DNA from: a virus
IMG/VR virus record: IMGVR_UViG_3300025769_000184
Coordinates: 1-50,295 of that record
Length of the DNA stretch: 50,295 bases
Strand: one strand, 5' to 3'
In this document: in pieces, positions 20,224-46,896 of the stretch
Position numbering within the stretch: the stretch's first letter is position 1
Layout: each line of letters begins with the position of its first letter
The notes under the pieces: model-generated
Databases searched by the model: none
Told to the model about the DNA's origin: nothing
The model's input: the letters and a program-made list of their open reading frames with translations, nothing else
Position numbers and translations under genes: made by a program

Positions 20224-20231
20224 CAAATATA
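20224..20231 (-). promoter_or_regulatory. TATATTTG box upstream of the giant virion gene
   Basis: An exact TATATTTG (minus strand) lies 14 bases before ATG 20209, between this gene and the stop of the preceding virion gene at 20237. It matches the Bacteroidota -7 element TAnnTTTG. Its presence here supports 20209, not the GTG at 19998, as the start of the giant gene. No TTTG is evident at -33. Confidence 0.5.
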
Positions 20232-20236
20232 ATAAA

Positions 20237-21814
20237 TTATTGAGGCATCGACGCGGCGATCTGCGCCTGCTCGTCGTTGAATGCCTCAAGAATATCCATA
20301 CCCTTGGCCGCTGCCTGAACCGTGTCGTCGATTCTATATCCCTTGATGTATGCAAGCTTGGCCAAGATGGACATGTATTCTGGATTGCGCACATTCCTGC
20401 CGTCCTTCATGAGTGTCGGTGCAACCATGATGTTTGAAGTACGCTTCTTGCGGCTGATCTTAGCCGCGTCTGTGGAAAGCCCCAAGGCGATGAGGTTTGC
20501 CCTACGTGCCTGAAGCTCTGGGTCGTTGGCAAGTTCGTCTCCAGTCAACTCGAAGTACATCTCGGCATCGACAAACAGGTTTTTCTGCGTATCCAGGGCG
20601 ACGGACAGCACCTTGTACTGGTCGCTGACCTCGTTGTATCTAGGATCGTCTGCGGTCTGCGGGACGTAGCTCCTCTTGATCATCATGCTGGAACCGCCTG
20701 CGCTTGTAGACGGGACGAGCATGTTTGTAATCCCCTCTGCCACAGGCTGGCCTGTAGAGCCTGGCCCCATCTCACCGTAGAATGCGTAGTTGCTGGGGTT
20801 AAATGTAGAGAACGAAGGCATAGGCTTGATCTTAGTTCCAGACTCGTCGCTCTTAGCCTGCAGGTTACCGACAAGGAACCTCATCGTTTCGTCTACATAC
20901 TCCCTGACATGGATAGGAGCTGCGCCCTCTTGAAGGGACGCAGCGTCTTCCTGGATGGCGGCCTGTGCAGCATTGCCGTAATTCTCGTTGAATACGTTCA
21001 ATGCCGTGGCCTGTACCGATGGGTTCTGCATGGCCGTGGCCGTGACCCACTTGCTGAGCTGCTGCACCTTCTGATCGTAGCTGGTGCTCTCGTCTTTCTT
21101 GAGTCTGGTGGCGGCTGAAGCGAACTCCTTGGAGAACTTTCCAGGCAAGAGGTTGGCGTACGGTGCTGCCGTAGGAGAGAAGAACTCCTGAGACCCACGG
21201 GTAGGAGACATAGAGGCAAGACCAAACAGGTCCTTGCCGTCCTGACCTTTGAGGCGGTTTCCGTTGATGTCCGTGTAGTAGGCGTAGGTGTCTCCGTTCG
21301 CGTCAATCCTGATAGATTCTGGGTCGATGCCCGACATCTCCCACATCATGGCCTTCTGATTGAAGGTGTCCATGCTGTCCTTCAACTCCAACTCGTTGTT
21401 GGTCCACTGCTTGGTCCCCGTAACCCAGCCCTCCAGGTTGGATCTGGAAGTATTCACGTTATCTGCGTGATTCTTGAGGGTGGAGTGCAGTGTCTTCAGA
21501 CCGTTGATGTCCTCGGCAAACTCTGCCGTATTGCCTCCCGTGTAGTAGTAGTTGTTGATCCTACTCTTCACCCAGTCCATCTTGTTCCCGAACGTCTGCT
21601 TGTCGATCTCTGACAGGTCTGCCACGTCGAACCCAAGCGTCTCCTTCTGCTGCTTTTCAAGCTGCTTCTGACGGTCCTTTGCAAGATTAAACTCCATCGC
21701 CGCGCGTTGACGGCGCTGCTGATTGACGATTTCGATCTGCTGATCAATCGCATCAGAGAAGCTTACAGGGCCTAGCTGAGGCTTGAGGTGGTCGTAGTAC
21801 TTTTCCTTTGCCAT
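20237..21814 (-). CDS. Putative internal virion protein
   Basis: The 525-residue protein begins with a charged coiled-coil region (about 25-60, QQIEIVNQQRRQRAAMEFNLAKD) and continues as a mixed, Ala/Gln-rich protein with no recognised enzyme motif. It sits in a TAATG-linked series between a Gln-rich virion protein and the giant ejection protein, the place where podoviruses keep internal core or ejection proteins. It probably helps build the inner core or the channel for DNA delivery. The family was not identified by name; the call rests on context and composition. Confidence 0.6.
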   Translation of the reverse strand: MAKEKYYDHLKPQLGPVSFSDAIDQQIEIVNQQRRQRAAMEFNLAKDRQKQLEKQQKETLGFDVADLSEIDKQTFGNKMDWVKSRINNYYYTGGNTAEFAEDINGLKTLHSTLKNHADNVNTSRSNLEGWVTGTKQWTNNELELKDSMDTFNQKAMMWEMSGIDPESIRIDANGDTYAYYTDINGNRLKGQDGKDLFGLASMSPTRGSQEFFSPTAAPYANLLPGKFSKEFASAATRLKKDESTSYDQKVQQLSKWVTATAMQNPSVQATALNVFNENYGNAAQAAIQEDAASLQEGAAPIHVREYVDETMRFLVGNLQAKSDESGTKIKPMPSFSTFNPSNYAFYGEMGPGSTGQPVAEGITNMLVPSTSAGGSSMMIKRSYVPQTADDPRYNEVSDQYKVLSVALDTQKNLFVDAEMYFELTGDELANDPELQARRANLIALGLSTDAAKISRKKRTSNIMVAPTLMKDGRNVRNPEYMSILAKLAYIKGYRIDDTVQAAAKGMDILEAFNDEQAQIAASMPQ

Positions 21815-22755: not shown

Positions 22756-22759
22756 ACTA

Positions 22760-22767
22760 CAAATTTA
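22760..22767 (-). promoter_or_regulatory. TAAATTTG box just before the Gln-rich virion gene
   Basis: TAAATTTG fits TAnnTTTG and lies 4 bases before ATG 22755; its first three bases are the stop codon of the preceding gene. If used as a -7 box it would give a nearly leaderless mRNA. Weak alone; it counts mainly because six exact TATATTTG boxes sit in like positions. Confidence 0.3.
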
Positions 22768-29891: not shown

Positions 29892-30715
29892 TAGTATTTA
29901 GGTGCCTGCCTGAAGTTCTTACGAATTGTCTTGATTGCCTCATCCTTGGTGAAGGTGCTGAGACGTGCATTCGCCTTCCGACGTTCGTTGTAGTATTCTG
30001 CACGCGCTCTCGACTTCTCATTTGCAGGTACGCTAGCTTTTCTCTCGACGAGCTTGTAGTAGATGTAGGATCTGAGGGCTTCCTCTGCGTAGACGTGGAC
30101 CTCTGGGTCTGTGGACCTGGCCTCGTCTGCGATGTACTCCATGACGACCTCGCTGGCGTTGGTGTGCAACTCCACCTCGACCCTGTTGTCTTGAAGGTTG
30201 AGGCGGTAGTGTCCTGCAGCCTGCGCTCCACCGAATCCGTAGAGTCTACCCGTACCACCTTGGAACGTGTAGTTGTCGAACACGAAGCTGTCGTCTGGGT
30301 TCTTTGGTGTAGATCCTGTAGCAGTCTTGCTGGCCTCCACGTCGTCCACGAGGTTGGCGTCGATGTTAAGCGGTCCTTTCGCACTCTCCGTCTCAGCCCC
30401 TGTGGTCACCTTCTTGCTGGAGTAGTTGATGTTGTTGTTCTGCACCAGTGATCTGATGATGCCGTCCTCGTCCACAATCCCTATCTTCGAGAAGTCCACG
30501 AAGTCATCGGGTAGGGCGACCGTATCGTTGCTTGTATCGATGGCCAGCTTGAGAGACTTGATCTTCTTGCCCAGGTCGAACCCGATCTCACGAATGCCAC
30601 GCAGGGCGAAGTTTCTAATCGCCACGTCCGATGCATTGCTTACGTAGTCATCACCGTCAAGGGTGATGATGAAGTCCCTGATGATCTGACTCAGCTTTAC
30701 TTTGTTCATACTCAT
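29891..30715 (-). CDS. Neck/adaptor protein (tail tubular A-like)
   Basis: The 274-residue protein has an N-terminal helical part (IIRDFIITLDGDDYVSNASDVAIRNFALRGIREIGFD...), a beta part containing LPDDFVDFSKIGIVDEDG, and a helical C-terminus with EEALRSYIYYKLVERK and AEYYNERRKANARL. This build is seen in adaptor or ring proteins of podoviruses (P22 gp4, T7 gp11 and crAss-like ring proteins). It should join the portal to the tail. Both neighbours are joined by TAATG overlaps, which fits a fixed ratio of neck components. The family class is likely; which ring it forms is not known. Confidence 0.68.
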   Translation of the reverse strand: MSMNKVKLSQIIRDFIITLDGDDYVSNASDVAIRNFALRGIREIGFDLGKKIKSLKLAIDTSNDTVALPDDFVDFSKIGIVDEDGIIRSLVQNNNINYSSKKVTTGAETESAKGPLNIDANLVDDVEASKTATGSTPKNPDDSFVFDNYTFQGGTGRLYGFGGAQAAGHYRLNLQDNRVEVELHTNASEVVMEYIADEARSTDPEVHVYAEEALRSYIYYKLVERKASVPANEKSRARAEYYNERRKANARLSTFTKDEAIKTIRKNFRQAPKY

Positions 30716-31452
30716 TACTCAGCTGATTCTTTGCGAGCCCCGTATCCCTGGAGGTTCTGGTCTCTAAGTCTAACTCCGAGAAGCTCACACATCTCGGCAA
30801 TAATCTCTGGCACGTACTCGTCTGGGATCATAAAGTCGTACGATGTTGCGGGGTCTACAGCTGAGCTGTTAGGAATGAAGTTGATCGATGGTCGGAACGA
30901 CGGCCTTTTATCCGTAGTTCCGTACGCATAAGAAGTGGGAAGGCTGTAGTAAGTAAGTGTTGTAGACCTGATGGTATCTGGGAACACCTCAATGTCTTCA
31001 GAGATCAAGGCTACGGGAAACTCCTGGGTAGGCGTAGAAAGATTGCTGCCCAAGATCATGTTCATCTTCTCGACATCGTACACGATCTCACACGGAGTCC
31101 TGTTCGTATCAAACTTCCTTACGAGTGCATTCACCCTCAATGAGATGATCTTGCTTAGGTCGCTAGGCTTACCGAATCTATTTGTAGAGCCCTGCTTCTT
31201 TGTAAGCTGCACGTCTCTCACGTAGATGGAGACGTCCTCGGATGTGAACTTACGTGCAGACTTGTCTCTGCCCGCGTCCATCCCCTGACGGATGAGCCCC
31301 TGCGCCTTCGTGAAGTCATCGAAGAGCTCGTTGTATACGTTCATCTGCGCGATGTGGGCAAATGAATTGAAGACAGCAGGTGTGATGAAGCCTTTCTGCT
31401 CCTTGTTGCTGATGTCCTTCAGTGCCTCGTATACCTTTAATACACTTGCCAT
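30715..31452 (-). CDS. Ring/neck protein, crAss-like
   Basis: The start was moved to ATG 31452 (MASVLKVYEALKDISN), because the longer frame would begin inside the terminator and promoter box. The protein then has 245 residues. It carries KEQKGFITPAVFNSFAHIAQMNVY near the N-terminus, a pattern common in ring proteins of Bacteroidota podoviruses, and ends in a helical region with IPDEYVPEIIAEMCELLG. It is the first gene after a terminator and a TATATTTG box, so it probably starts a neck-tail transcript. A ring role in the neck is inferred from family likeness and gene order. Confidence 0.65.
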   Translation of the reverse strand: MASVLKVYEALKDISNKEQKGFITPAVFNSFAHIAQMNVYNELFDDFTKAQGLIRQGMDAGRDKSARKFTSEDVSIYVRDVQLTKKQGSTNRFGKPSDLSKIISLRVNALVRKFDTNRTPCEIVYDVEKMNMILGSNLSTPTQEFPVALISEDIEVFPDTIRSTTLTYYSLPTSYAYGTTDKRPSFRPSINFIPNSSAVDPATSYDFMIPDEYVPEIIAEMCELLGVRLRDQNLQGYGARKESAE

Positions 31453-31456
31453 GAGA

Positions 31457-31464
31457 CAAATATA
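31457..31464 (-). promoter_or_regulatory. TATATTTG box between terminator and ring-protein start
   Basis: An exact TATATTTG follows the T-tract of the minus-strand terminator after one base and stands 4 bases before ATG 31452. The order terminator, box, start codon is what is expected for the head of a new transcript. The short distance to the ATG would make the mRNA leaderless or almost so. Confidence 0.55.
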
Positions 31465-31496
31465 CAAAAAAGAAAAGCCGCCCTTTCAGGCGGCTT
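31465..31496 (-). terminator. Rho-independent terminator after the DUF-like head gene
   Basis: On the minus strand AAGCCGCC-TGAAAG-GGCGGCTT (31496 to 31475) is followed by TTCTTTTTT. It starts 5 bases past the stop of the gene at 31501-32325 and ends at the TATATTTG box of the ring-protein gene. Confidence 0.9.
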
Positions 31497-31500
31497 CTCG

Positions 31501-32325: not shown

Positions 32326-32329
32326 TTAA

Positions 32330-33574: not shown

Positions 33575-33590
33575 TGCAATAAAGTTACCG

Positions 33591-33598
33591 CAAATATA
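33591..33598 (-). promoter_or_regulatory. TATATTTG box upstream of the LamG-like gene
   Basis: An exact TATATTTG lies two bases after the T-tract of a minus-strand terminator and 16 bases before ATG 33574. It matches the Bacteroidota -7 element; no clear TTTG stands at -33, where the terminator hairpin lies. Confidence 0.55.
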
Positions 33599-33600
33599 GC

Positions 33601-33628
33601 AAAAAGAAAAAGGCTCCCGAAGGAGCCC
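33601..33628 (-). terminator. Rho-independent UUCG terminator
   Basis: On the minus strand GGCTCC-TTCG-GGAGCC (33627-33612) is followed by TTTTTCTTTTT. It lies 22 bases past the stop of the gene at 33650 and separates it from the LamG-like gene. Confidence 0.92.
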
Positions 33629-33649
33629 TTTCTGTTGAGTCAAGACATC

Positions 33650-34522
33650 TTACAATGCATCTTCTTTTGCTCCGAAAAGTCTAATCAAAATTTGACCACC
33701 AGTGTAATCTCCGTCTGGGGACGTGCCCGTATGGATCAAATGAAGGTACTTTCCGTCAAGTGCTTGATTTACATCAAAAGAAACAGACTTACCAGCAGTG
33801 TCTGCAGTAAGAGCAGTACCAACCGTAGTCAGACCTGATCCCTCTCCCTCTCCCTTGGACTCACTGTCGTGTCTAGCCAACTCTATCACATCGTCTCCTC
33901 CAGTAAGCGGCTTGATGCAAATCATTTCGCCTCGATAGATCACTCCGTTTTTGGCCTTGTTTACAAGAGTGATCCTGCAGTCTGTTCCATTCTCTTCTCC
34001 AATGACTTGGTCACCCACAGCGCTAGAGTGCAGAGGCCCATCTGTAAAGTCAATAAGAATCGTAGTAACTACTTCAGAGTTGTAATTACCAATACGACCA
34101 GATGTTGTGATGTCGGCTCCTGAGCTATTGATGTTGTCTGAAATTGCAGTAACTTTTTTTGAGAAAACAATTTGAGAGTGAGCTGCAAATTCAACACCTG
34201 TCATCTGCTTGACGTCAGGGTGAATTGTTTCCTCAGTAAAATCATCAGCGATTGTTATTACTGCATTGTTAGAGAAGTTAATCTCATTAACAATGTGCTC
34301 CATCAAATCTCTTGGGTTGCTGCCAGATGTCCTCAAAAGAGTTAGATCCAAAGTATCAGTCTCAACAGACTCCTTGAAAAACATTCTCAAGTTAGACGCC
34401 GTAGTAGTTTCCATCCCCGCAAAAGTTGACACAGGTACTGTGACTGCATTTTGCTGACTGCCTCCACCTTCAGAATCCCCTTCGTCAGGGTTGAAGTGTA
34501 AAAATTTCTTATTAGGATCCAT
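33650..34522 (-). CDS. Putative virion structural protein
   Basis: The 290-residue protein is beta-rich and acidic. A disordered N-terminus (NPDEGDSEGGGSQQN) is followed by a region with PRDLMEHIVNEINFSNNAVITIADD and, after SESKGEGEGSG, a C-terminal domain ending IRLFGAKEDAL. The motif 'D-x-x-E/D-x-x-V/A-N-x-I' is shared with the neighbouring 109-residue protein (QDVIDAVANAIRTS), which suggests related domains. It lies between the capsid gene region and the LamG-like gene, 2 bases after its neighbour. No family name is assigned; virion location is inferred from context. Confidence 0.55.
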   Translation of the reverse strand: MDPNKKFLHFNPDEGDSEGGGSQQNAVTVPVSTFAGMETTTASNLRMFFKESVETDTLDLTLLRTSGSNPRDLMEHIVNEINFSNNAVITIADDFTEETIHPDVKQMTGVEFAAHSQIVFSKKVTAISDNINSSGADITTSGRIGNYNSEVVTTILIDFTDGPLHSSAVGDQVIGEENGTDCRITLVNKAKNGVIYRGEMICIKPLTGGDDVIELARHDSESKGEGEGSGLTTVGTALTADTAGKSVSFDVNQALDGKYLHLIHTGTSPDGDYTGGQILIRLFGAKEDAL

Positions 34523-34524
34523 AA

Positions 34525-34854
34525 TTACTGAATAGAAAGATCACCAGGAAGTTCAATATTAAGAAGATCGGTGTGAATAAACTCTTTACTTAGAGTATCA
34601 GCCACAACAATAAAAGGCTTTTTGCTCGTCCTAATCGCATTAGCAACGGCGTCTATAACATCTTGAGCCTTATTCCTTGTGGTTGACGCCTTTAAGGTGA
34701 CTTCGGCTCCTATTCCGTCACCAGTGTCTTTAAACTCAAAAGTGACACCGTCGCTTTCTGTGTCTATTTTCATAGCACGAAGCAATGAAACAGGCATGCA
34801 GATACAATCCCGACCGTCGGATTCGGCATCTGCGAAATATAAAAATTTTAACAT
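34525..34854 (-). CDS. Hypothetical structural-region protein, related to its neighbour
   Basis: The 109-residue protein begins MLKFLYFADAESDGRDCICMP and contains TRNKAQDVIDAVANAIRTSKKPFIVVAD, similar in pattern to the middle of the 290-residue protein that follows. It may be a small duplicate of that domain. The leader contains a 6-bp hairpin (TGAGGA-GTA-TCCTCA at 34874-34888) and an A-rich run before the ATG. It sits after a terminator and before the 290-residue gene with a 2-base gap. Function unknown. Confidence 0.5.
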   Translation of the reverse strand: MLKFLYFADAESDGRDCICMPVSLLRAMKIDTESDGVTFEFKDTGDGIGAEVTLKASTTRNKAQDVIDAVANAIRTSKKPFIVVADTLSKEFIHTDLLNIELPGDLSIQ

Positions 34855-34902
34855 CGTAGTTATTTTTTATAGCTGAGGAGTATCCTCACCTAACTGTTAA
34901 TG

Positions 34903-34933
34903 TAAAAGAGAAAACGGGGCCGAAGCCCCTTTT
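34903..34933 (-). terminator. Rho-independent UUCG terminator after the 157-residue structural gene
   Basis: On the minus strand GGGGC-TTCG-GCCCC (34929-34916), flanked by AAAA and GTTTT that extend the stem, is followed by CTCTTTT. It begins a few bases past the stop at 34936. Confidence 0.9.
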
Positions 34934-34935
34934 CG

Positions 34936-35409
34936 TTAAATCAGATGAGTAAACTCAAAGTTTACCTCTACGTTAGAGTTTTCAGTAACCGCGTGGTCGC
35001 TGTGCAAGAACGTCAAGTACACAGTCCTATCTACATCTGTGTACCCTAAGGCAGCAGCAGGAGTAGTATGAGTTGTGCTTTCAAAATTAGTATCAGCATC
35101 AAGGTTTCCTTGTCCTCCGTTCAATAGATACACTGTATTTTCAGGAATAGAAGTTCCGCTATCAAGAAAGCCATCTACCTGGGTTCCAAGTTGGGCGCCA
35201 CTACTGGTTGATCCAATCTCCCAGCCGACCTGACTAGAAGCTCCATGCGTGGAGGTGTTTGTAAACCTTACGATAATCTCTCTCAACAAAGTTCCAGCAG
35301 GCTGAGTGACTTCAATAATAGCTCCATCGGCATCTTGAGTAAATACGTCTGTTGCAGTAACTCTCTTGGCAGCCGTTACAGCTCCTGACCCGTGTTTATA
35401 TGTAGGCAT
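34936..35409 (-). CDS. Putative virion protein downstream of the capsid gene
   Basis: The 157-residue protein is beta-rich and Thr/Ser-rich (QPAGTLLREIIVRFTNTST, TVYLTFLHSD, NVEVNFEFTHLI), without Cys and without catalytic motifs. It is a single-gene unit enclosed by two UUCG terminators, right after the major capsid gene. Such compact beta proteins next to the capsid gene are often decoration or minor capsid proteins. The family was not recognised. Confidence 0.5.
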   Translation of the reverse strand: MPTYKHGSGAVTAAKRVTATDVFTQDADGAIIEVTQPAGTLLREIIVRFTNTSTHGASSQVGWEIGSTSSGAQLGTQVDGFLDSGTSIPENTVYLLNGGQGNLDADTNFESTTHTTPAAALGYTDVDRTVYLTFLHSDHAVTENSNVEVNFEFTHLI

Positions 35410-35432
35410 AATAGAAAGTATTATGAAGCTAA

Positions 35433-35455
35433 GGGGAAGGGCCGAAGCCCCTCCC
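35433..35455 (-). terminator. UUCG hairpin after the major capsid gene (weak T-tract)
   Basis: On the minus strand GGGAGGGGC-TTCG-GCCCTTCCC forms a nine-pair stem with one G-T pair. Only CTTAGCTTC follows, so the T-tract is poor. It may cause partial termination or protect the 3' end of the abundant capsid mRNA. Confidence 0.65.
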
Positions 35456-35474
35456 TTTCACTTCAGGTTAATTA

Positions 35475-36920
35475 TTATCCCTTGATGACCACGTGCTGGT
35501 TTGCAGCACGGACGCAAAGGGCGATTTCGGATCTGTAGTGGAACACAGCCTGGTCTGTACCGAGGTCGCCGTTGTTGTTGTGACCCAACACGCCGCCACC
35601 AGTCACCCAGTGCTCCATTTCACGAGAATATCCGTTAGCCTCCTTGTAGTGCATAGAGAGCGCAGGAACAGAAGCACCGCTGCGGGCGTCGTTCACAGTT
35701 CTCAAAGGCACCATAGCACCCTGGATAACTCCGTTGTCAACAGCACCCAACAAGGTTGGATCGTTCAACAACTTCCAGTCGTGCTTGTGGAAGGTGTAGC
35801 CACCGCGAGTGAAGCTCTTGAAGCCCAACTGCACGGCCATGTCTGCAGAGTTCTGGAATGCACCGAACTGACCTGGGAGACCCGCAGTCACACCAGTAGC
35901 GATACCAGATGCCAACATGTCGTCGATGGCCAAGTCCTGCTTTCTGTTGACGTACATGGCGTACTCGGAAGGAGCGCCCTGCTTGTCCAACTCCAGGATC
36001 AAGTCATCGAACTCAGAGAAGCTGTCCATGGGGTTAGCTCCTGCGTTCTGCATCACGATACCTCTGTCCTCGACGGCGGAGAAGTAACCCTCAGAGCCTG
36101 CTCTTGCGCCAGTGAGATCTGTAGCCTCGGAAGAGCTACGCTTCTCACCGAAGAGCATCATCAACTCACGCTTGTCTTCGAAACGAGCACGTGCCTCTTT
36201 CTCACCGTACATGAACCATCTGTAGTCTCCGCCACCCAAGTTCACGTAACCGATGTTGGTAGCCTGAGATCCGTTGACCTCGTAGCGATCCTTTACGATC
36301 ATATATGGGTTGGTGTAGCGGACCATACCTGGGTCGGTGAATGCGTGAGGCTGTTCAGTACCCTGTGCGTACAAGTTTCCGAGAACAACGAAAGTACAGT
36401 TGCCTGCACCTGCAGTGATGTCAACCGCGTCGGTGTGACTTCCGTCGAGCTTGACCAAAGTCACGTTACTGTTGGTACCATCAGATGCAAGTCCACCAGC
36501 CTGAACGATGAAACGAGCACCAGTCTTTGCCTCCATAACGACGTCGTTCACCTGAACATTAGTCTTGAAGGTGGCATCGGAGACGGCGAAACCGTCGGTG
36601 TCATCAGACTGGGCAGTGTCTGCCGCGATGGTGAATGATCTGTGGCGACGGCCTTCTTCCCACCAGTCGACCTGGTCTGAAGAACCACCGCTGTTGATGG
36701 CGCCTGTCAACTTCAAGAATCCAGTGATACCCTGATCACCGTAGGTCTTGACGAGGTCTGGCATGACGTCCTCCTTCGTTGCCTTAACGAGGTCGTCAAT
36801 AGTAGTATAGCTCTCAGGAGAGGCTTTAAAAGCACGGCTGAGATTTTTTCTTTCAACCACCACATTTGGTGAGCTCAAAGTAGGGTCGAGGGTTGGCTGT
36901 CCTGATTTAATGTTAGCCAT
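35475..36920 (-). CDS. Major capsid protein, crAss-like HK97 fold
   Basis: The 481-residue protein contains GGGDYRWFMYGEKEARARFEDK and MMLFGEKRSS in the middle, and GFKSFTRGGYTFHKHDWKLLND with VPLRTVNDARSG towards the C-terminus, patterns seen in major capsid proteins of crAss-like phages. It has the expected length and follows the scaffold gene by 13 bases. It forms the icosahedral shell. A domain of about residues 100-180 (TFKTNVQVNDVVMEAKTGARF ... TDAVDITAGAG) looks like an inserted beta domain. A hairpin after its stop may stabilise the message. Confidence 0.85.
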   Translation of the reverse strand: MANIKSGQPTLDPTLSSPNVVVERKNLSRAFKASPESYTTIDDLVKATKEDVMPDLVKTYGDQGITGFLKLTGAINSGGSSDQVDWWEEGRRHRSFTIAADTAQSDDTDGFAVSDATFKTNVQVNDVVMEAKTGARFIVQAGGLASDGTNSNVTLVKLDGSHTDAVDITAGAGNCTFVVLGNLYAQGTEQPHAFTDPGMVRYTNPYMIVKDRYEVNGSQATNIGYVNLGGGDYRWFMYGEKEARARFEDKRELMMLFGEKRSSSEATDLTGARAGSEGYFSAVEDRGIVMQNAGANPMDSFSEFDDLILELDKQGAPSEYAMYVNRKQDLAIDDMLASGIATGVTAGLPGQFGAFQNSADMAVQLGFKSFTRGGYTFHKHDWKLLNDPTLLGAVDNGVIQGAMVPLRTVNDARSGASVPALSMHYKEANGYSREMEHWVTGGGVLGHNNNGDLGTDQAVFHYRSEIALCVRAANQHVVIKG

Positions 36921-36933
36921 AGTTTCTTAGTTT

Positions 36934-38031
36934 TTAGATTTTAAAAGTTAATCCTGAGGATGAGTTTCTCAGGAGGTTTCTCACCTGATCGGAGAGAGGA
37001 TTGTTTTGTTCTTGACCTGTCTGTTTTGGCGCGGCGGTAGAAACATTCGCAGCCTTGTCGACGAGACCTCGCTGACCGTCACCCAACCCCTGTTGATACG
37101 CAGAGCGTACAATGGCGTCGATGTTCTGTGTCACGGCGATGTGAGTCGACAGAGCGTCGTAGTTCCAGTTGCCTTCGCCGTCCACGAACGGGTCGAAGAA
37201 GTTTTCAATGTTGGCGTTGGATGCCTTCACGCGATTCTTAGTGGCGTCGTCGAAGCCAAAGGTGAAGCTCTTGTCACCGCCCAGGTCGAACTCCAACCCA
37301 GTCATCTGATCTACTTCTTTTGACATCGTGCTGATCCACTGATCATCAACGATAGGATCCATGTCCATGTCTTGCTCTTGGGCAGGTGCGGTGTAGCGAT
37401 CTCTCAAATCGGAGATTGCAGCGCGTGCCTTTTGAGCATCGACCTTCAGTCGCAGTTGCGACATCTGGATGGTGTTGGCGTCATTAGCCTTGTCATCCAT
37501 TGGGTAACTGTTCTGTACGAGAAGATTGATCTCGCTAGAGGAGAGGTTAGGGTACTCAGATGCCAGATTGACTCTCACTGCTGTGAGGTCGTCCATACCT
37601 GATGGATCCAGCGACTGATATCTAAACCAATCTTCAGGACCGCGTCCCGTCGTTTCGACGAACTCTGCGATCTTAGCGACTCTCTCATCTAGAGCAGTCT
37701 GTTGTTGAGCTCCCTGGAGTTGATCAAATGATTCGATCTGCATGCCGAGCCTTTCGCTGGCGTAGTTCAGAACGGCTGATTCGATGTCCTCCTGAGAGTA
37801 CTCAGGTTGTTCTTGTTGTGGTTCGGCCTGTGGTTCTGGCTGAACTTCTGGTTGTGGCTCAGGTTGAGCCGCGTCTGGGGCTTCGTATGTAGCGGGCTCT
37901 GGGGCCTGCTCCTCCTGAACAGGCTGAGACTCCTGTTGGGGAGTCTCTTCCTGTACTTGCTCAGACGCGATCATGGCGTCTGGCGAGTCGAAGACTTCAA
38001 AGCCTGCGACGGGTGAGTTGTTATCTTCCAT
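36934..38031 (-). CDS. Scaffolding protein
   Basis: The 365-residue protein has a strongly acidic N-terminal third made of Glu, Gln and Pro (about residues 25-80, QPEPQPEVQPEPQAEPQQE), then helical regions (ESAVLNYASERLGMQIESFDQL) and a short C-terminal NNPLSDQVRNLLRNSS helix. Position directly upstream of the major capsid gene, acidic Pro/Gln-rich composition and length fit a capsid assembly scaffold. It should guide prohead assembly and leave before or during packaging. No protease gene is visible next to it. The leader before the ATG is A/T only (AATTAAAATATA). Confidence 0.75.
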   Translation of the reverse strand: MEDNNSPVAGFEVFDSPDAMIASEQVQEETPQQESQPVQEEQAPEPATYEAPDAAQPEPQPEVQPEPQAEPQQEQPEYSQEDIESAVLNYASERLGMQIESFDQLQGAQQQTALDERVAKIAEFVETTGRGPEDWFRYQSLDPSGMDDLTAVRVNLASEYPNLSSSEINLLVQNSYPMDDKANDANTIQMSQLRLKVDAQKARAAISDLRDRYTAPAQEQDMDMDPIVDDQWISTMSKEVDQMTGLEFDLGGDKSFTFGFDDATKNRVKASNANIENFFDPFVDGEGNWNYDALSTHIAVTQNIDAIVRSAYQQGLGDGQRGLVDKAANVSTAAPKQTGQEQNNPLSDQVRNLLRNSSSGLTFKI

Positions 38032-38050
38032 TATATTTTAATTGATTTGT

Positions 38051-38380
38051 TTACTTCGCTGGGCCGTGGTAGGCCAAGACCTTTCCAGATGCCAAGGTGA
38101 TGGCATCGAAACGACCATAGATGGTCATACCTTTTGGAAAGACTGTGGTCGACGCGACCTGATCACCAGTGCCGTCGAAGTCATCTGCACTGTCGGTACC
38201 GAAGTACTTGGTGTTGTCCTCTGCTTCGAGCTTGGTGAACTTGGTGTCCTCAAGGCACGTAACAGCAACGTACACCATCCCTGTAGGAGGTGTACATGCT
38301 GTATTGCTGTCGATGTGCGTGCTTCCGAGTTGACCGAAAGCAGCCTGAGAGGACATTCCTTGGTTTGCTAATGTTGCCAT
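38051..38380 (-). CDS. Small head-region structural protein
   Basis: The 109-residue protein begins MATLANQGMSSQAAFGQLGS and contains MVYVAVTCLEDTKFTKLEAED and VFPKGMTIYGRFDAITLASGKVLAYHG. The 'fpkG-x-tiyGr-x-x-x-itLasGkviay' ending is a recurrent pattern in small virion proteins of Bacteroidota phages. It lies between two beta-sandwich-like genes and the scaffold. A decoration or head-fibre role is likely but not shown. Confidence 0.6.
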   Translation of the reverse strand: MATLANQGMSSQAAFGQLGSTHIDSNTACTPPTGMVYVAVTCLEDTKFTKLEAEDNTKYFGTDSADDFDGTGDQVASTTVFPKGMTIYGRFDAITLASGKVLAYHGPAK

Positions 38381-38390
38381 GTCTTATGTA

Positions 38391-38798
38391 TTAGGAACCT
38401 CCGTATGGGTTGTCTGAATCATCGTTGCCGAACACACCGTACTCGATCAACGAGTCGACTCTTGTGCCGTACACCTCGTACTTCTTGTCTGGAGCGACTG
38501 GGATAAACGCAAATTCACCTCCGCCAATCTTGGCTACGAGACCAGTGTCGGTGTCATTGTGAATGTATACATAGTTCTCCAGATCCTCCTCCAGGTTTTT
38601 GATGTAGAGGTAGGCTCTGTCTTCGCACTGATTGGCGATGTAGATAGCGAGGTCGTTCGTGTCCGCAGCAGTACCCTTCACCTTCGCACGAATCAAGCTA
38701 CCTGAATCGACATTGATGCCACCAGATACAGATAAGTTCAAAGGCGACGTAAGCACGTCGCTGCTCGCGAGAGTAAGTGATACTGTTACGTTAGCCAT
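38391..38798 (-). CDS. Beta-rich head protein, paralogue A
   Basis: The 135-residue protein begins MANVTVSLTLASSDVLTSPLNLSVSGGINVDSGS, which closely parallels the start of the gene before it (MATTTASITLSSSDLTGDALSLSSTATLTKAGSA). Both continue with a 'YIKN-x-x-E/S-...-V/I-x-I' strand region and end with a short acidic beta part. It seems to be one of two tandem copies and may form part of a head fibre or decoration. The ATG overlaps the stop of the preceding copy (TAATG at 38798). Confidence 0.55.
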   Translation of the reverse strand: MANVTVSLTLASSDVLTSPLNLSVSGGINVDSGSLIRAKVKGTAADTNDLAIYIANQCEDRAYLYIKNLEEDLENYVYIHNDTDTGLVAKIGGGEFAFIPVAPDKKYEVYGTRVDSLIEYGVFGNDDSDNPYGGS

Positions 38799-39199
38799 TA
38801 AGCTTCGTAGATAACGAGGTACTCGACGGTCATGTTGACATCAGAAGTGTCGATGTCAATGTCGTTGTTTCCATCGTAAGGAATCAACATCCAGTCTCCT
38901 CCGTACAGTCTGCCAAGAGAAACGTTAGAGCCGCCAAGTTCGATCGTGATAAACTCAGAATTGCTAGTAGAGGTGTTCTTGATGTACACCTTGTGAGCCT
39001 TGTCTGCAGTGTAGTCTGCAGCAGCGACGAGGTTGTAAGCAGTCTGTGCTCCAGCAAAGAACTTTCGAGCAACGCCAGTAGTCTGATCCAGGCCAGTAGC
39101 GCTACCAGCCTTAGTCAAGGTTGCGGTAGAGCTCAGGGACAATGCGTCTCCCGTGAGATCAGAGCTAGAAAGCGTAATTGATGCAGTGGTTGTAGCCAT
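38798..39199 (-). CDS. Beta-rich head protein, paralogue B
   Basis: The 133-residue partner of the preceding entry contains ARKFFAGAQTAYNLVAAADYTADKAHKVYIKNTST and GGDWMLIPYDGNNDIDI, and is rich in Ser/Thr. It is preceded by a 33-base leader with a TATATTTG box 21 bases before its ATG and a stretch of CAAACAAAAA, so it likely heads the transcript for the head genes down to the capsid gene. Function is inferred only from position and composition. Confidence 0.55.
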   Translation of the reverse strand: MATTTASITLSSSDLTGDALSLSSTATLTKAGSATGLDQTTGVARKFFAGAQTAYNLVAAADYTADKAHKVYIKNTSTSNSEFITIELGGSNVSLGRLYGGDWMLIPYDGNNDIDIDTSDVNMTVEYLVIYEA

Positions 39200-39220
39200 T
39201 TTTGTTTGTTGTTATTTCTG

Positions 39221-39228
39221 CAAATATA
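39221..39228 (-). promoter_or_regulatory. TATATTTG box upstream of the head gene cluster
   Basis: An exact TATATTTG lies between the stop at 39233 and ATG 39199, leaving a 21-base A-rich leader. Of all the boxes this spacing is the most like a normal promoter with a short 5' UTR. Confidence 0.55.
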
Positions 39229-39232
39229 GTAA

Positions 39233-39496
39233 TTATCTGTAACGCGCAGTTTTACGCGCGATAGACTTGGGTTGTTTTACGAACTGCTTCTTGCTCTTAG
39301 CCTTTGCTTTGTTTGTCGCAGATTTTTCTCCCGCACTCAACGCACTCCACGCAGCCTTAGGAAGATACCGCTTCTTGCCCTTGGACTTAACCTCCTTGGA
39401 CTTTCCTTTCTTCTTGTTTGCGTGGGTTCCAGACGTCATCCATTCTTGACCCGTCCAGTTCTTGAGCGACTGCTGTGACTTCTTGAGCTTTGGCAT
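39233..39496 (-). CDS. Small Lys-rich basic protein (YLPKAAW type)
   Basis: The 87-residue protein is about one third Lys/Arg. It contains SLKNWTGQEWMTS, RYLPKAAWSALSAGEKSATNKAK and a basic tail (ARKTARYR). The 'RYLP-x-x-A-x-x-x-L-x-x-x-E/Y-x-A-T-x-x-K' pattern recurs in small virus-encoded proteins (DUF5872-like). Such proteins are thought to be packed with DNA or bound to nucleic acids. It is the last of four short basic genes linked by short stop-start overlaps, between fibre and head genes. Confidence 0.6.
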   Translation of the reverse strand: MPKLKKSQQSLKNWTGQEWMTSGTHANKKKGKSKEVKSKGKKRYLPKAAWSALSAGEKSATNKAKAKSKKQFVKQPKSIARKTARYR

Positions 39497-39690
39497 TAGT
39501 TTTTATATCCTCCGCCTGCGGCCTTGTAAGCCTTGGCTACCATCTGTGCTTTGCGTGCAGACCACTGACCTGGTCTGCCGCCCTTCGATCCAGCTTTGAT
39601 TCTGTTGAAGATTCTCTTGCGCATACCTGGCTTGGTGTAATTACCTGCCTCGTTTACGCGGCTCTTGCTTTTCTTGTTGAGTTTAGGCAT
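39496..39690 (-). CDS. Small basic protein (AGNYTKP / GGRPGQWSARKAQ type)
   Basis: The 64-residue protein reads KKSKSRVNEAGNYTKPGMRKRIFNRIKAGSKGGRPGQWSARK... and ends YKAAGGGYKN, a sequence type that is widespread and well conserved in Bacteroidota and other phages but not characterised. It is strongly basic and likely binds nucleic acid or the inner capsid. Its stop and the next start share TAATG at 39496. Confidence 0.65.
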   Translation of the reverse strand: MPKLNKKSKSRVNEAGNYTKPGMRKRIFNRIKAGSKGGRPGQWSARKAQMVAKAYKAAGGGYKN

Positions 39691-39871
39691 GATTTACGAG
39701 TTTGAACTTTGCACTCTTGACTGCACCTGGATGCGGTTTGTAATCTCCCTTCATGAGGAAGTATCTACCACGCTCCTCCATCCAATGGTAGCCCGAAGGA
39801 GGCGGTACATCCATGGCCTTGGAGCTGACCTTCAACTTGCCCCCTTTGTTGTATTTGACTACGCTTGGCAT
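39683..39871 (-). CDS. Small basic hypothetical protein
   Basis: The 62-residue protein starts at ATG 39871 (MPSVVKYNKGGKLKVSSKAMD), chosen over an upstream GTG because the ATG forms a TAATG overlap with the preceding gene. It contains PPPSGYHWMEERGRYFLMKGDYKPHPGAVKSAKF. It has a basic N-terminus and no Cys. Short, well conserved in pattern, unknown function. Confidence 0.55.
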   Translation of the reverse strand: MPSVVKYNKGGKLKVSSKAMDVPPPSGYHWMEERGRYFLMKGDYKPHPGAVKSAKFKLVNHA

Positions 39872-40164
39872 TACCACTTTACTTTATTAGCCCAGTAAGC
39901 TGCGCTGGTCTTCCCCTTAGCGATGTTCTTTCTGTGGCGTGCCTTGAACGACTTGCGCTTGGCCTTCATGCGTGCAGACTCACCCGCCTTGGGCTTACCT
40001 GCGGTGGACGCCCCACGTTCACCGAAGCGGATGATCTTGACTCTACCGCCGTCGCGTACCGCTACGATGTGTGACTTCTTCCCGCTTGAAGATCTCTTAG
40101 GTTTGTTCAGTCCGCTAAGACCAAATCTTTTCAGTTTCTTTTTATCGCTTTCGTTAAGTGCCAT
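39871..40164 (-). CDS. Small basic protein with KSFKARHRKNIAKGK motif
   Basis: The 97-residue protein has HIVAVRDGGRVKIIRFGERGASTAGKPK, followed by SARMKAKRKSFKARHRKNI and SAAYWANKVKW. This is a common small phage protein of unknown function. It is highly basic and heads the four-gene basic cluster. A TATATTTG box lies 4 bases upstream of its ATG, so the cluster may be transcribed on its own. Confidence 0.65.
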   Translation of the reverse strand: MALNESDKKKLKRFGLSGLNKPKRSSSGKKSHIVAVRDGGRVKIIRFGERGASTAGKPKAGESARMKAKRKSFKARHRKNIAKGKTSAAYWANKVKW

Positions 40165-40168
40165 ATTG

Positions 40169-40176
40169 CAAATATA
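40169..40176 (-). promoter_or_regulatory. TATATTTG box upstream of the small basic gene cluster
   Basis: An exact TATATTTG lies in the 24-base gap between the fibre gene stop (40189) and ATG 40164, 4 bases before the ATG. As with the boxes near 31452 and 44514, use as a -7 element would leave almost no leader. Confidence 0.5.
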
Positions 40177-40188
40177 AACAGCTAGGCT

Positions 40189-41706
40189 TTATGGGTTCTG
40201 CTGGTGTTCTGTGCTGCTGGAGCCAAGGTCTGCAGATGTATCGAACTCAACAATAGTTGTCACATACCAGTATGTGGTACTGGACAAATCGGCAGAAGCG
40301 TTAAGACCTATCGTACATAAGTCTCCAGCCTCGAAGTGCTGAGCGTTGTCGAACACGAAATGGAAAGTATGATGGTCGTCAGTATCAGTGACAGCCAAAG
40401 TCTCATTCTCCTCTTGCGTAAAGCTGCCTGGGGCAAAGATATTAGTTCCAGTGGGCGCGGTGTAGACTCTTACCGTAAGGTCTCCGCTTCCTGAAAGAGT
40501 TGCAGGACGAATAGACACTGAAACAATTCTTCCGTCGTATGGCATAAGCATGGCAGCCTCTTCCTGATAGATTGTGGTCTGCTCGTTAATGTCTTTCCAT
40601 GGCAAATAGTGATAGGAAGTCCCAATGTCATCTAAGAACGACATTGAGTGTACCTGCCTAAATGTTGTACTACTGCCTCCGCCTGCAGCCGCAAAAGACA
40701 GGTTTCCTGATCCGTCTGTTTTTAAGAACTGACCAGCACTTCCATCGGCAGTGGGCAGAATAAAGACAGTGTCAGAGGTCAGGGTAGTGGCACCTCTCAA
40801 AGCAACAAAGTTGTCTCCTGCGTCGTCGTAGAAAGATACCGTGCCTCTGGTAGTTCCTGCGTCTTTAATCTGAGTTACTCCAGTAAGCGTGTCGTTGACA
40901 CCATCCAAGGCATCAGTAAACGAGAGGGTTCCTGATCCGTTGGTCTTCAGTACTTGACCGTCGCTACCATCAGCGGCAGGGAGAGTGAAGGTCAGATCAG
41001 ATGCTAGAGATATAGGAGCCTGAAGCGCAACGAAGTTGTCATCTGGCAAAATATCACCTTCGTACAACTTAATTATTCCAACCCCCACAGAACCAGTTCC
41101 TCTAGTTCTGATTTCGTCAGCCTGCAAAACAATTTTGCCTGTACCATGAGGATCAATAACAATGTCTCCATTAGAAGCAGATACAATCTTGTTCCCGTTG
41201 ACATCAAGGTCCCCTCCAAGCTGAGGCGTTGTGTCGTCTACAACGTCACCTGAGGGTATGGTTGGAGCCCCTGAAAGGTCTGAGTATGCCCCGCTAGTAG
41301 CTACTGCAGCGAGAGAAGGCTTACCAGAAAGATCTGAGTAAGCTCCACTTGTTGCAACAGTAGCCAAACTTGGAGTCCCCGTTACATCCGAATAAGCAAC
41401 AGCCCCCCAGGAAGTGTCGTAGTCAGTTCCAGAGTCCTTGATCAGAACCTGATTCGCAGTACCTCCAGTAGGAACACCCTGACCATCTGCACCGTCTGCA
41501 CCGTCAACGCCATTATTACCAGGAACGCCTTGGATTCCCTGGGGGCCAGTGTCTCCCTTGGGTCCCTTCTGAAGAATAGACACAGAAGAAGATGCAGGGG
41601 GTGTGACCGAAACGCTCGTACTCTCCGTGGTAAACGATGCCTGGGTAGTACCAGACACAGTAACCGTAAGAGAGTTACCGCTCGTGGTATTTACCGTAAT
41701 CGCCAT
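40189..41706 (-). CDS. Fibre protein with collagen-like stalk
   Basis: The 505-residue protein has an N-terminal beta domain (1 to about 45), ten Gly-X-Y triplets (residues 48-77, GPKGDTGPQGIQG...GADGQG), three short repeats (YSDVTGTPSLATVATSGA type, about 98-148), two related modules of about 45 residues (DNFVAL ... LPAADGS..G..LKTNGSGTLSF, near 225 and 300), and a beta-rich C-terminal head of about 155 residues (from about 350). The build is that of a trimeric phage fibre: anchor, stalk, shaft and receptor-contacting tip. It is co-translated with a 146-residue partner (TAATG at 41706), and lies in the head gene region, so it may be a head or neck fibre. Confidence 0.75.
   Translation of the reverse strand: MAITVNTTSGNSLTVTVSGTTQASFTTESTSVSVTPPASSSVSILQKGPKGDTGPQGIQGVPGNNGVDGADGADGQGVPTGGTANQVLIKDSGTDYDTSWGAVAYSDVTGTPSLATVATSGAYSDLSGKPSLAAVATSGAYSDLSGAPTIPSGDVVDDTTPQLGGDLDVNGNKIVSASNGDIVIDPHGTGKIVLQADEIRTRGTGSVGVGIIKLYEGDILPDDNFVALQAPISLASDLTFTLPAADGSDGQVLKTNGSGTLSFTDALDGVNDTLTGVTQIKDAGTTRGTVSFYDDAGDNFVALRGATTLTSDTVFILPTADGSAGQFLKTDGSGNLSFAAAGGGSSTTFRQVHSMSFLDDIGTSYHYLPWKDINEQTTIYQEEAAMLMPYDGRIVSVSIRPATLSGSGDLTVRVYTAPTGTNIFAPGSFTQEENETLAVTDTDDHHTFHFVFDNAQHFEAGDLCTIGLNASADLSSTTYWYVTTIVEFDTSADLGSSSTEHQQNP
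41476..41565 (-). repeat. Ten collagen-like Gly-X-Y triplets in the fibre protein
   Basis: Residues 48-77 are ten uninterrupted Gly-X-Y triplets, enough for a short triple helix. The stretch joins the N-terminal anchor to the repeated shaft. Confidence 0.85.
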
Positions 41707-42146
41707 TAAAGAGTCGGATTGGAGATGTCGTCGTTGACAGTGAACTGTCCTTCAAGAATTGTAGTGGCTACGCTGTTCACAGTCTGCTGAATGTCGTACA
41801 CGTAGTTGCCAGCTTCGATAAGCTGCATGGCCTCGCTCGTTGCAGTGAACGTGGCGTTGCCGTCATCGTCCACCGTAACGGTGAAGTTCGTGGCAACCTC
41901 GACCCTGTCGGCATTCACCTTTGTCGCAGACCTGCCCTGGTCCGTCGTACCCATGATGAGCTCCCTATCGGAACCGTCTGGAAGTGGGTCCCCCTTCACT
42001 TGCATCAAGAACGTGTATCCGCTGGTGCTGAGCGTGATGGCTGTGCCAGCCGAATCCTTGATCAACAAGCCAAGGCTAAATGTATCTCCGCGCTTGCACG
42101 TGATGTCAAGCCTTTCGGAGATATCTAGGTTTACTTTATTGGCCAT
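41706..42146 (-). CDS. Fibre base/anchor beta-sandwich protein (BppU-N-like)
   Basis: The 146-residue protein contains ERLDITCKRGDTFSLGLLIKDSAGTAITL, then TFLMQVKGDP, and AGNYVYDIQQTVNSVATTILEGQFTVNDDIS. This is the pattern of phage beta-sandwich anchors related to the N-terminal domain of baseplate upper proteins. It overlaps the portal gene by 11 bases and is TAATG-coupled to the collagen-like fibre gene, so it likely fixes that fibre to the particle. The role is inferred from the pair. Confidence 0.6.
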   Translation of the reverse strand: MANKVNLDISERLDITCKRGDTFSLGLLIKDSAGTAITLSTSGYTFLMQVKGDPLPDGSDRELIMGTTDQGRSATKVNADRVEVATNFTVTVDDDGNATFTATSEAMQLIEAGNYVYDIQQTVNSVATTILEGQFTVNDDISNPTL

Positions 42147-44514
42147 CTTCTTCTAGTTGTTCTTGTTGTTGAGTTTGCTGCTGGGTGAGTCTTTCGTTCT
42201 TGCCATCCTCCTTCATCACCTCCAGCTTTTCCTTAAAGTTCTGATCGTCTTCACGGAAACCAAGTGTGGCCTGTGCTTTGATCATCTCGATCTCCTTACG
42301 CATCTCGTGCTCCATCTGCATGAGCTGCATGTCGAGCTGACCTTTGAGTTGGATTTCCTGCTGCTTGAGCTGAGACTCCATCTGGATCTCCTGCTGTTTT
42401 GCCTGTGATGCAGCGGCAGCAGCTTGTTGAGCCTGCTGCGCCTGCACTTGAGAATTCTGTGCAGCCATCTCTTGTTGCTGCTTCATTCGCTTCTTGCGGC
42501 GAAGGACGAGCAGCCTCTCTGCCTGGTTCACATCCTTCAGTGTGCGAACAGCGATGGCGTCTTCAAGATCGATCTGACCCTGCTGAATGGACACCTGGAT
42601 GTTCTGCTCCAGGTACTCCTTGTCCTTGTCCTCCATCTCTTTGACGACCTGCACCCCGAAATTGTACATGGCCAAATCTCTGAATGAATCAAGGACCGAC
42701 ATGTTGGTCTCTCCGATAGCGTTGGCGTAGATCCTGAACAGCACGGACTCGGATGGGATGATCTGAATGCACTTGACGATATCCTGACACACCTTCTTGT
42801 ACATCATCATCGATGCGTTGGTGATGTCGTGGATTGCATTGTTGCCCTGGACGATGGCGTTCTGCTGAACCCCGACGAGCATATCACCCTTCGGTGTAGT
42901 CCCGTCCATAGATTCGTTGATGCCAGACGTATCTCTGATCAACTGCAGGTAGTGGTTGTACAGAGCCACCAACTCTTGAATGTTCCTGATGGCATTGCCG
43001 ATTTCCCGTACTGGAGGATTCTGGAATCCACCCTCTGGGTTCTTGCTCCTGTAGTAGAAGACACCAGTCTGCTCGTAGATGTCGTGGATCTCCAGTGGCT
43101 CAAGCTCACCGCCCTTTCCAAGCTGGACGTTCTCCAACCCTTCGATGTCGATGATCAATCCATCAGGCTTGGCCTTGGCGACCGCCTGCTGGATCTTCAA
43201 GTGAGTGAGCTGAAGCATGTCCGCAAACCCTGTGCAGCTGTCCACCATGGATTTGGGGACCATGCGCAGCATGTTTGTGGCTACGGGAGAGTAAGACAAC
43301 GTCACACGGCTGAGGTCGTGTACGTTCTTCGGCATGTTTTGCTTCTTGCCGTACCCGTAGATGGTCTCGGTACCGACGATGAACGAACCACCGTAAACGC
43401 AAGAAACCTCCATCTTGTGAGGCTTTCTTTCGAACACGGTGCCAGCTCTCTCCTTGTAGGAGTCGCCCTTGTAGTAGAATCCAGTGTTACCGAATCGGTT
43501 CTCCTTCTCCTCGAAGTAGATGCAATCGACGCCGATGAACTCGAAGTCCATCACCTCCACCATGTACTCGTCGTATCCGTAAATGGTACGCATGTACCTG
43601 TCGTCGTAGTGTGACGAATTAAACCTAGATGCGTCGTTGGAATACTTGTCCTTGACCTTGTTTGCGATCTGCTTGTAGTCCTCCTCTGTAAGATCGTCTC
43701 CCGCCAACCGCTTCAGCTCCTGAATGGGGATGCGCTTGATGTGACCAGCGTACACCATATCCCCGAAGTTAGGGTCCTCCGTGTAGCTGTGGACGAAGGT
43801 GGCGGGGTCGACGTACTCCACGTCGATTCCCTTGTTGGGATCGTTCTGCCTCTTCACGACAGCCATACCCAAGGACACGAGGTCGAGTACAGCTCTGCGG
43901 AATGTGGAGTCATTGAAGTTCGCCCAAGACAAAGTCATCGCAGTGGCAAGCTGTGCGGCCACCTCTGCGTCCGTCTTGATATTCGTGTCCATGAACATCT
44001 CAGCCTCCTCCAAAGATTCTGGGATGTCGTCTGGGTCCATGTCGAGCACTGCGCCCGTCTGCTCCTTCAACTGCTGCAACTCCTTCCGTGCCTCCACCTG
44101 CATGCGGATGCGGTCCTTCTTCTTGTTTTTCTCGGAGGAAGAGACAGGGTCGATGGACTCCAGGTTCGGATAGGGGTCCCTTGACAAGATTTTGTTAGCG
44201 ACGATCTTGACAAACTTGGGGAGGATCGGTACGGGAGTGTAGTCGAGATTAAGCAAACTACCGTCCCCGTCCATGGGGTTGAGTGAGCTTAGAAGTTTTT
44301 TGTAGATTGTAGTATCTTGCGTACCGTTCGCGTAGTCTCTGTTGCGACTGAAGATCTTGTTTCTTCTACCGTAGAGAGAGTGGGTGTCTGTAGACTGCCC
44401 CCACTGGGAGTAGATGGCCATGGCATATTGGAGGCCATAGGACTTTTCCCTCTTCGCCTCTGCAGCAGCTAGAGGATCTGGAAAACCCTTCTTCTTATTG
44501 TTGTCGCTATACAT
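42136..44514 (-). CDS. Portal protein, crAss-like, with Gln-rich C-terminal tail
   Basis: The ATG at 44514 (MYSDNNKKKGFPDPL) is preferred over a GTG two codons upstream. The 792-residue protein matches crAss-like portals: AMAIYSQWGQSTDTHSLYGRR, RDYANGTQDTTIYKKLLSS, SLLNLDYTPVPILPKFVKIVANKI. A central region (RIPIQELKRLAGDDLT, SYSPVATNMLRMVPKSMVDS) is followed by RDTSGINESMDGTTPKGDMLVGVQQ. The last 120 residues are a long Gln-rich helix (AAASQAKQQEIQMESQLKQQEI...). It forms the dodecameric gate for DNA. It follows the terminase by 18 bases that include a TATATTTG box. Confidence 0.88.
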   Translation of the reverse strand: MYSDNNKKKGFPDPLAAAEAKREKSYGLQYAMAIYSQWGQSTDTHSLYGRRNKIFSRNRDYANGTQDTTIYKKLLSSLNPMDGDGSLLNLDYTPVPILPKFVKIVANKILSRDPYPNLESIDPVSSSEKNKKKDRIRMQVEARKELQQLKEQTGAVLDMDPDDIPESLEEAEMFMDTNIKTDAEVAAQLATAMTLSWANFNDSTFRRAVLDLVSLGMAVVKRQNDPNKGIDVEYVDPATFVHSYTEDPNFGDMVYAGHIKRIPIQELKRLAGDDLTEEDYKQIANKVKDKYSNDASRFNSSHYDDRYMRTIYGYDEYMVEVMDFEFIGVDCIYFEEKENRFGNTGFYYKGDSYKERAGTVFERKPHKMEVSCVYGGSFIVGTETIYGYGKKQNMPKNVHDLSRVTLSYSPVATNMLRMVPKSMVDSCTGFADMLQLTHLKIQQAVAKAKPDGLIIDIEGLENVQLGKGGELEPLEIHDIYEQTGVFYYRSKNPEGGFQNPPVREIGNAIRNIQELVALYNHYLQLIRDTSGINESMDGTTPKGDMLVGVQQNAIVQGNNAIHDITNASMMMYKKVCQDIVKCIQIIPSESVLFRIYANAIGETNMSVLDSFRDLAMYNFGVQVVKEMEDKDKEYLEQNIQVSIQQGQIDLEDAIAVRTLKDVNQAERLLVLRRKKRMKQQQEMAAQNSQVQAQQAQQAAAAASQAKQQEIQMESQLKQQEIQLKGQLDMQLMQMEHEMRKEIEMIKAQATLGFREDDQNFKEKLEVMKEDGKNERLTQQQTQQQEQLEEDGQ

Positions 44515-44519
44515 TGGCA

Positions 44520-44527
44520 CAAATATA
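44520..44527 (-). promoter_or_regulatory. TATATTTG box upstream of the portal gene
   Basis: An exact TATATTTG lies in the gap between the terminase stop (44533) and ATG 44514, five bases before the ATG. It supports the ATG rather than the overlapping GTG at 44520 as the portal start. Confidence 0.5.
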
Positions 44528-44532
44528 ACAAA

Positions 44533-46804: not shown

Positions 46805-46822
46805 AGTAGTTGATTTAATTTG

Positions 46823-46896
46823 TACACCCGCAGGGACTCGAACCCCGAACCTGCGCATTAGAAGTGCGCTGCTCTATCCCGTTGAGCTACAGGTGC
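46823..46896 (-). tRNA. tRNA-Arg(UCU)
   Basis: The minus strand folds into a full cloverleaf. The acceptor stem GCACCTG/CGGGTGT has two G-U pairs, the D-arm is GCTC/GAGC, and the anticodon arm is GCGCA-CTTCTAA-TGCGC with anticodon TCT. The T-arm is CGGGG-TTCGAGT-CCCTG and the discriminator is A. The encoded 3' end is not CCA. It reads AGA and AGG, codons that are frequent in the late genes of this phage. It lies between a 57-residue gene and the zinc-ribbon gene. Confidence 0.94.

Follow-up and report, generated by a model that had tools for sequence, protein, structure and literature searches.

TATATTTG boxes as probable late promoters, about half of them predicted to give leaderless mRNAs, in a clade of uncultured phages

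A short box, TATATTTG, that recurs ahead of the virion genes of an uncultured phage probably marks its late promoters, which would be of the host TAnnTTTG type, one per transcription unit, and leaderless in about half of the cases. The DNA analysed, hereafter the window, is a virus record of 50,295 nucleotides (IMGVR_UViG_3300025769_000184) and represents 50 kb of a genome that would measure about 62–65 kb; near-complete relatives measure about 59–67 kb. From 7.1 kb onward, its minus strand carries the genes for the portal (phrog_6547), the major capsid protein (phrog_13704), the terminase and other virion proteins, and it is from this gene content and from the strand that late timing is deduced. 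Among named phages, its relatives are the elemo group of Flavobacterium phages and Cellulophaga phages such as phi38:1; identity is about 30% for the portal and for the capsid. A host search of 84,980 genomes with the major capsid alignment and the phage NrdB gave no match. Two Persicobacter chromids, used as a Bacteroidota stand-in, had no excess of TAnnTTTG ahead of their genes and were uninformative as a comparison.

An exact-match scan of the window detected six copies of TATATTTG, all on the minus strand and none on the plus strand, starting at 20224, 31457, 33591, 39221, 40169 and 44520, as listed in a preliminary description of this DNA. The mean number expected by chance was 0.58 for both strands together, and none of 100 dinucleotide shuffles reached six. 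All six copies are intergenic and separated from the next ATG by 14, 4, 16, 21, 4 and 5 nt, respectively, which agrees with the placement at gene boundaries, 4–21 nt ahead of start codons, initially reported. The seventh, near-copy box of that description, TAAATTTG, was also found, on the minus strand at 22760–22767 and 4 nt before the ATG of a 313-aa gene. It is a possible weaker leaderless promoter, with one usable relative for comparison.

The box at 44520–44527 lies 5 nt ahead of the portal gene (42136–44514), the mRNA of which is predicted to be leaderless. The same prediction applies to the boxes at 40169–40176 and 31457–31464, each 4 nt from an ATG, that of a gene for a 97-aa basic protein (39871–40164) and that of a 245-aa late gene (30715–31452), respectively. 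A short leader is predicted behind the box at 39221–39228, 21 nt from the ATG of a 133-aa gene (38798–39199). This gene opens a cluster that continues with genes of 135 and 109 aa, a scaffold-like gene of 365 aa and the major capsid gene, none of which has a box of its own. The two remaining boxes precede a 414-aa late gene (box 33591–33598, gene 32330–33574, distance 16 nt) and a giant late gene of about 2,900 aa (box 20224–20231, gene 11407–20209, distance 14 nt), whose frame is broken at a ten-T run near its start; a 2,878-aa gene in the relative G002 also has the box ahead of it. All these boxes and genes are on the minus strand. Two boxes had been described as following terminator T-tracts, and those at 31457 and 33591 do lie directly behind strong hairpins with T tracts, the minus-strand intrinsic terminators at 31472–31499 (−21.9 kcal/mol, z −3.3) and 33607–33632 (−16.8 kcal/mol, z −3.1).

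Conservation of the box was analysed in 122 related loci, retrieved by means of the capsid and portal genes and oriented by their late strand; the sequences are metagenomic, and gene starts were called mechanically, with ATG only. TATATTTG was the most over-represented 8-mer of the late strand, with 428 copies versus 38.6 expected, whereas the opposite strand had 15. In a survey of orthologues, any upstream TAnnTTTG was counted, leaving the two free bases open. The box was present ahead of all 45 portal orthologues, 40 of 42 orthologues of the 245-aa gene (34 of them at exactly 4 nt) and 54 of 58 orthologues of the 133-aa gene (mostly 15–22 nt from the ATG), in every case with TATA. It also preceded 35 of 41 orthologues of the 414-aa gene (31 TATATTTG and four TATTTTTG; 15 at 4 nt) and 20 of 26 orthologues of the 97-aa gene (13 TATATTTG). 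No TAnnTTTG was found upstream of the 17 major capsid orthologues or the 58 scaffold orthologues, and other intra-operon genes were likewise without box.

Among 16 near-complete genomes of the clade, 110 of the 129 late-strand boxes were intergenic, although intergenic DNA makes up 8.1% of the sequence (p = 4e-99). The motif is therefore not equally common inside genes, where 19 boxes were found; this was the test set in advance. Chance or a compositional artefact is contradicted by the shuffles, the clade-wide enrichment, the orthologue conservation and the intergenic bias, and since the box is conserved across the clade we consider this reading refuted, its residual probability being negligible. 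The clade is a widespread marine one, throughout which enrichment, orthologue conservation and the distance classes described below support a role of the boxes as late promoters.

Distances were taken to the first ATG at the head of a frame of at least 40 codons. Of 237 non-redundant boxes, 95 had a distance of 3–7 nt (exactly 4 nt in 76) and 108 one of at least 12 nt; 34 had no ATG within reach, and at no site did the distance fall between 8 and 11 nt. The two classes recurred among the boxes of 80 loci fetched with another gene, the contigs of which partly overlap the first set. In spacing samples, among the matches listed, the ATG was a genuine gene start at 4 nt in 52 of 122 cases, versus 10 of 119 at 8 nt. 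The classes also differed in the base preceding the ATG, a pyrimidine in 87 of the 95 close sites (92%) versus 30 of 98 distant ones (Fisher p = 4e-19), with mostly A in the distant class. At leadered sites, A occupied offsets 4–5 after the box in 64–65%.

Mapping in F. johnsoniae placed transcription starts 4–5 nt after the −7 element TAHHTTTG (PMC6847099). Applied to the phage boxes, this rule predicts that mRNAs of the close class begin at the AUG and that those of the distant class mostly have leaders of about 10–17 nt; the empty zone would correspond to leaders of about 3–7 nt. As expected, the pyrimidine before the ATG in the close class fits a transcription start, and the A in the distant class fits a translation context. 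Leaderless mRNAs are thus predicted for 95 of the 203 assignable sites, about 47%. Values published for Bacteroidota are far lower: 5′ UTRs shorter than 10 nt make up 3.7% in B. thetaiotaomicron (PMC7366714), leaderless transcripts account for 5.5% in F. psychrophilum (PMC9723704), and leaders of at most 10 nt for 13% in F. johnsoniae (PMC6847099). What is uncommon in the hosts is therefore predicted at nearly half of the assignable sites of the phage clade. The proposal that boxes very near the ATG are leaderless promoters, made for a few boxes of one phage, is supported across the clade by the distance classes, the mRNA ends being sequence-based predictions.

Apart from the box itself, few shared elements were detected. 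In line with the initial description, none of the six boxes of the window has a −33 TTTG. Among sites without terminator, TTTG was found at spacing 19 in one of 171 and at spacings 20 or 21 in none; for sites with or without terminators, neither a −33 TTTG at plausible spacings nor any other upstream motif or activator site was found. The sole extensions of the box were a T at the fourth base upstream (68%) and a pyrimidine–purine step directly after it. A terminator-like hairpin lay directly upstream of 66 of the 237 boxes, versus eight in shuffles and five in downstream controls. The missing −33 element had been called unusual, and this part of the description was not upheld: in F. johnsoniae there is little −33 signal genome-wide, and it is much less evident than AT-rich stretches (PMC6847099). 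Its absence is therefore indecisive, and the argument that it proves a modified polymerase was dropped. E. coli-type sigma-70 promoters, sought in positions 30001–46000, were not above chance. A T7-like RNA polymerase gave no match, but neither did the control of that search, so this counts as no evidence.

On the early strand of the clade genomes the enriched box was a different one, TATCTTTG. The ratio of TATA to TATC was 102:6 ahead of late-strand genes, versus 2:10 ahead of early-strand genes (p = 4e-9). Three outgroup phages, Cellulophaga phi38:1, Flavobacterium phage elemoE and ctfjg026, resemble the clade in having TAnnTTTG before late genes, in phi38:1 behind a terminator, but they use TATCTTTG more often, with leaders of mostly 15–30 nt and almost no sites at 4–5 nt. 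In phi38:1, two of the boxes are at 49566 and 59117. In the unrelated phages L241, L265, L291 and L293, TATATTTG occurs 4–5 nt before the ATG, at several sites with TTTG 19 nt upstream. A late TATA box at leaderless distance is thus typical of the clade, because it is rarer in the outgroups, and not unique to it, because unrelated phages share it. In unrelated phages that carry sigma factors, box-to-ATG distances were broad (11–43 nt, few at 4–5), so that a phage sigma alone does not accompany leaderless sites.

We propose that the boxes are −7 elements of the TAnnTTTG type and that the primary sigma holoenzyme of Bacteroidota reads them. Each box would open a separate late transcription unit, often right behind the terminator of the preceding one, and transcription would begin 4–5 nt past the box. 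Where the ATG lies at that distance the mRNA would begin at AUG; otherwise it would have a leader of about 10–17 nt. Such a promoter would have no −33 element, the box being extended by T-rich upstream sequence (T at −4) and by the pyrimidine–purine that follows. It would resemble the known sigma-ABfr promoters (−33 TTTG / −7 TAnnTTTG) in that the box fits TAHHTTTG, the consensus published for F. johnsoniae, as well as in its T/A-rich upstream sequence and in the purine at the expected start 4–5 nt downstream. It would differ from them by the lack of a −33 element, by free positions that are almost always TA, and by predicted leaderless mRNAs at about 47% of assignable boxes, versus 3.7–13% of published transcripts with short leaders. 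A plain host enzyme also leaves unexplained the bias for TATA at late and TATC at early genes and the silence of the boxes early in infection, and this counts against the proposal.

Late promoters of phage T4 consist of the box TATAAATA, read through gp55. The boxes described here are likewise single, short and AT-rich, lack a −35/−33 element and are confined to late genes, and a T4-like reading by a phage-modified polymerase, as initially suggested, is possible, though rather unlikely. The modifying factor would be a phage sigma where present, the winged-helix protein described below or an unrecognised small protein, and would enable RNA polymerase to work from a −7 box alone, with a strict TA spacer, and restrict this use to late infection. 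Such a factor would account for the late spacer being nearly always TA (45 of 45 at the portal gene) when the host sigma accepts A, C or T in either place (PMC6847099), for the use of TATCTTTG by early promoters of the same genomes, and for the lack of both a −33 element and an upstream activator site. However, unlike the T4 box, TATATTTG itself matches the −7 consensus of the host, and unrelated phages pair it with a normal −33 TTTG.

The search for a phage sigma factor, recommended as a check, gave a divided answer. With Pfam Sigma70_r2, the window (50 kb of the genome) had no match, and no gp55-like factor was identified in it, although a highly divergent protein of that kind would escape the search. 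Among 31 relatives, five had full-length sigma factors, and none was detectable in the 26 others, which have the same boxes; T4-type use, with a dedicated sigma in every phage, is therefore not what was found. In the four genomes that were read, it is the early strand that carries the sigma gene. Where read, the proteins are 289–297 aa long, begin with MRQLKIT and have regions 2 and 4 without region 1.1; their closest HMMs are primary-type RpoD/SigA models, with scores below the curated cut-offs. In three of four, the helix that aligns with the −35 reader has S-S-E-R or T-A-E-R, versus T-R-E-R in solved SigA chains, from which one may speculate that −33 recognition is altered. The best-placed core candidate for the early–late switch is a winged-helix protein of 140 aa (48676–49098, plus strand), encoded on the early strand within the late block. 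It was detected in 30 of the 31 relatives, and the three outgroups gave no hit. Like the different box of the early promoters, the sigma factors of five relatives and the presence of this core candidate regulator speak for a late-specific component of some kind. Its AlphaFold model, of moderate confidence, had the MarR-family MepR as best Foldseek match, and a weak Pfam PadR hit was below cut-off. A fuller version, in which a factor-altered polymerase reads TATATTTG as a one-element late promoter (strict TA, no −33, one base from the early TATCTTTG), about half of the late units including portal are leaderless, and some members have acquired a copy of a primary-type sigma, we regard as doubtful.

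The fixed 4-nt gap to the ATG at many genes, in hosts without Shine-Dalgarno sequences (PMC6847099), could also suggest a translation signal in the mRNA instead of a promoter. Half of the boxes are, however, at least 12 nt from the ATG, with none at 8–11 nt, many lie directly behind terminators, and the intra-operon major capsid and scaffold genes have none; this reading is highly improbable, and promoters of the host type are still what the boxes probably represent.

In the literature searched, no paper paired TATATTTG with a Bacteroidota phage. Although leaderless mRNAs are reported to be rare in Bacteroidota, essential virion genes of this clade appear to be expressed from them, and the spacing of the boxes, exact to the base, makes a sharp prediction of where the mRNAs start. 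If the prediction is true, the clade would be a natural source of strong leaderless promoters in a phylum without Shine-Dalgarno signals, and transcription starts of uncultured phages could be located from sequence alone. The boxes would also offer an entry point to the early-to-late switch of Bacteroidota phages, in which TATC genes give way to TATA genes.

The probable late promoter −7 box, TATATTTG, is also present in multiple copies in four unrelated contigs of about 42% GC (L241, L265, L291 and L293), where it lies 4–5 nt upstream of the ATG; at several of these sites, a TTTG is found 19 nt upstream of the box. Primary-type sigma factors starting with MRQLKIT are encoded by six records of the window's clade (L633–L638), and also by dozens of other viral contigs (L639–L711), many of which exceed 100 kb.

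Inspection of the giant late gene (11407–20209, minus strand) revealed that its frame is broken about 16 codons from the start by a run of ten T (20150–20159, minus strand), the sole homopolymer of at least 8 nt in the window. The break may reflect either an assembly slip or programmed slippage.

Elsewhere on the minus strand, a tRNA-Arg (TCT) gene (46822–46896) adjoins the terminase gene on its upstream side, and overlaps the terminase open frame in its GTG-started form. In a 195-aa late protein (47543–48130, minus strand), the C-terminal end contains a GroES (Cpn10) domain; both GroES and GroEL occur in relatives, Cellulophaga phage phi38:1 among them. Two more strong hairpins, with UUCG-type loops (34916–34929 and 35420–35474, minus strand), stand on either side of the gene following the major capsid gene, and TATATTTG is absent behind both.

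In early-strand leaders of genomes G001, G002, G017, G019 and others, CAAACTTCAA is often present a short way upstream of the ATG, and GGTTCGA-type partial inverted repeats lie downstream of some TATCTTTG promoters. Both are possible leader or operator elements.
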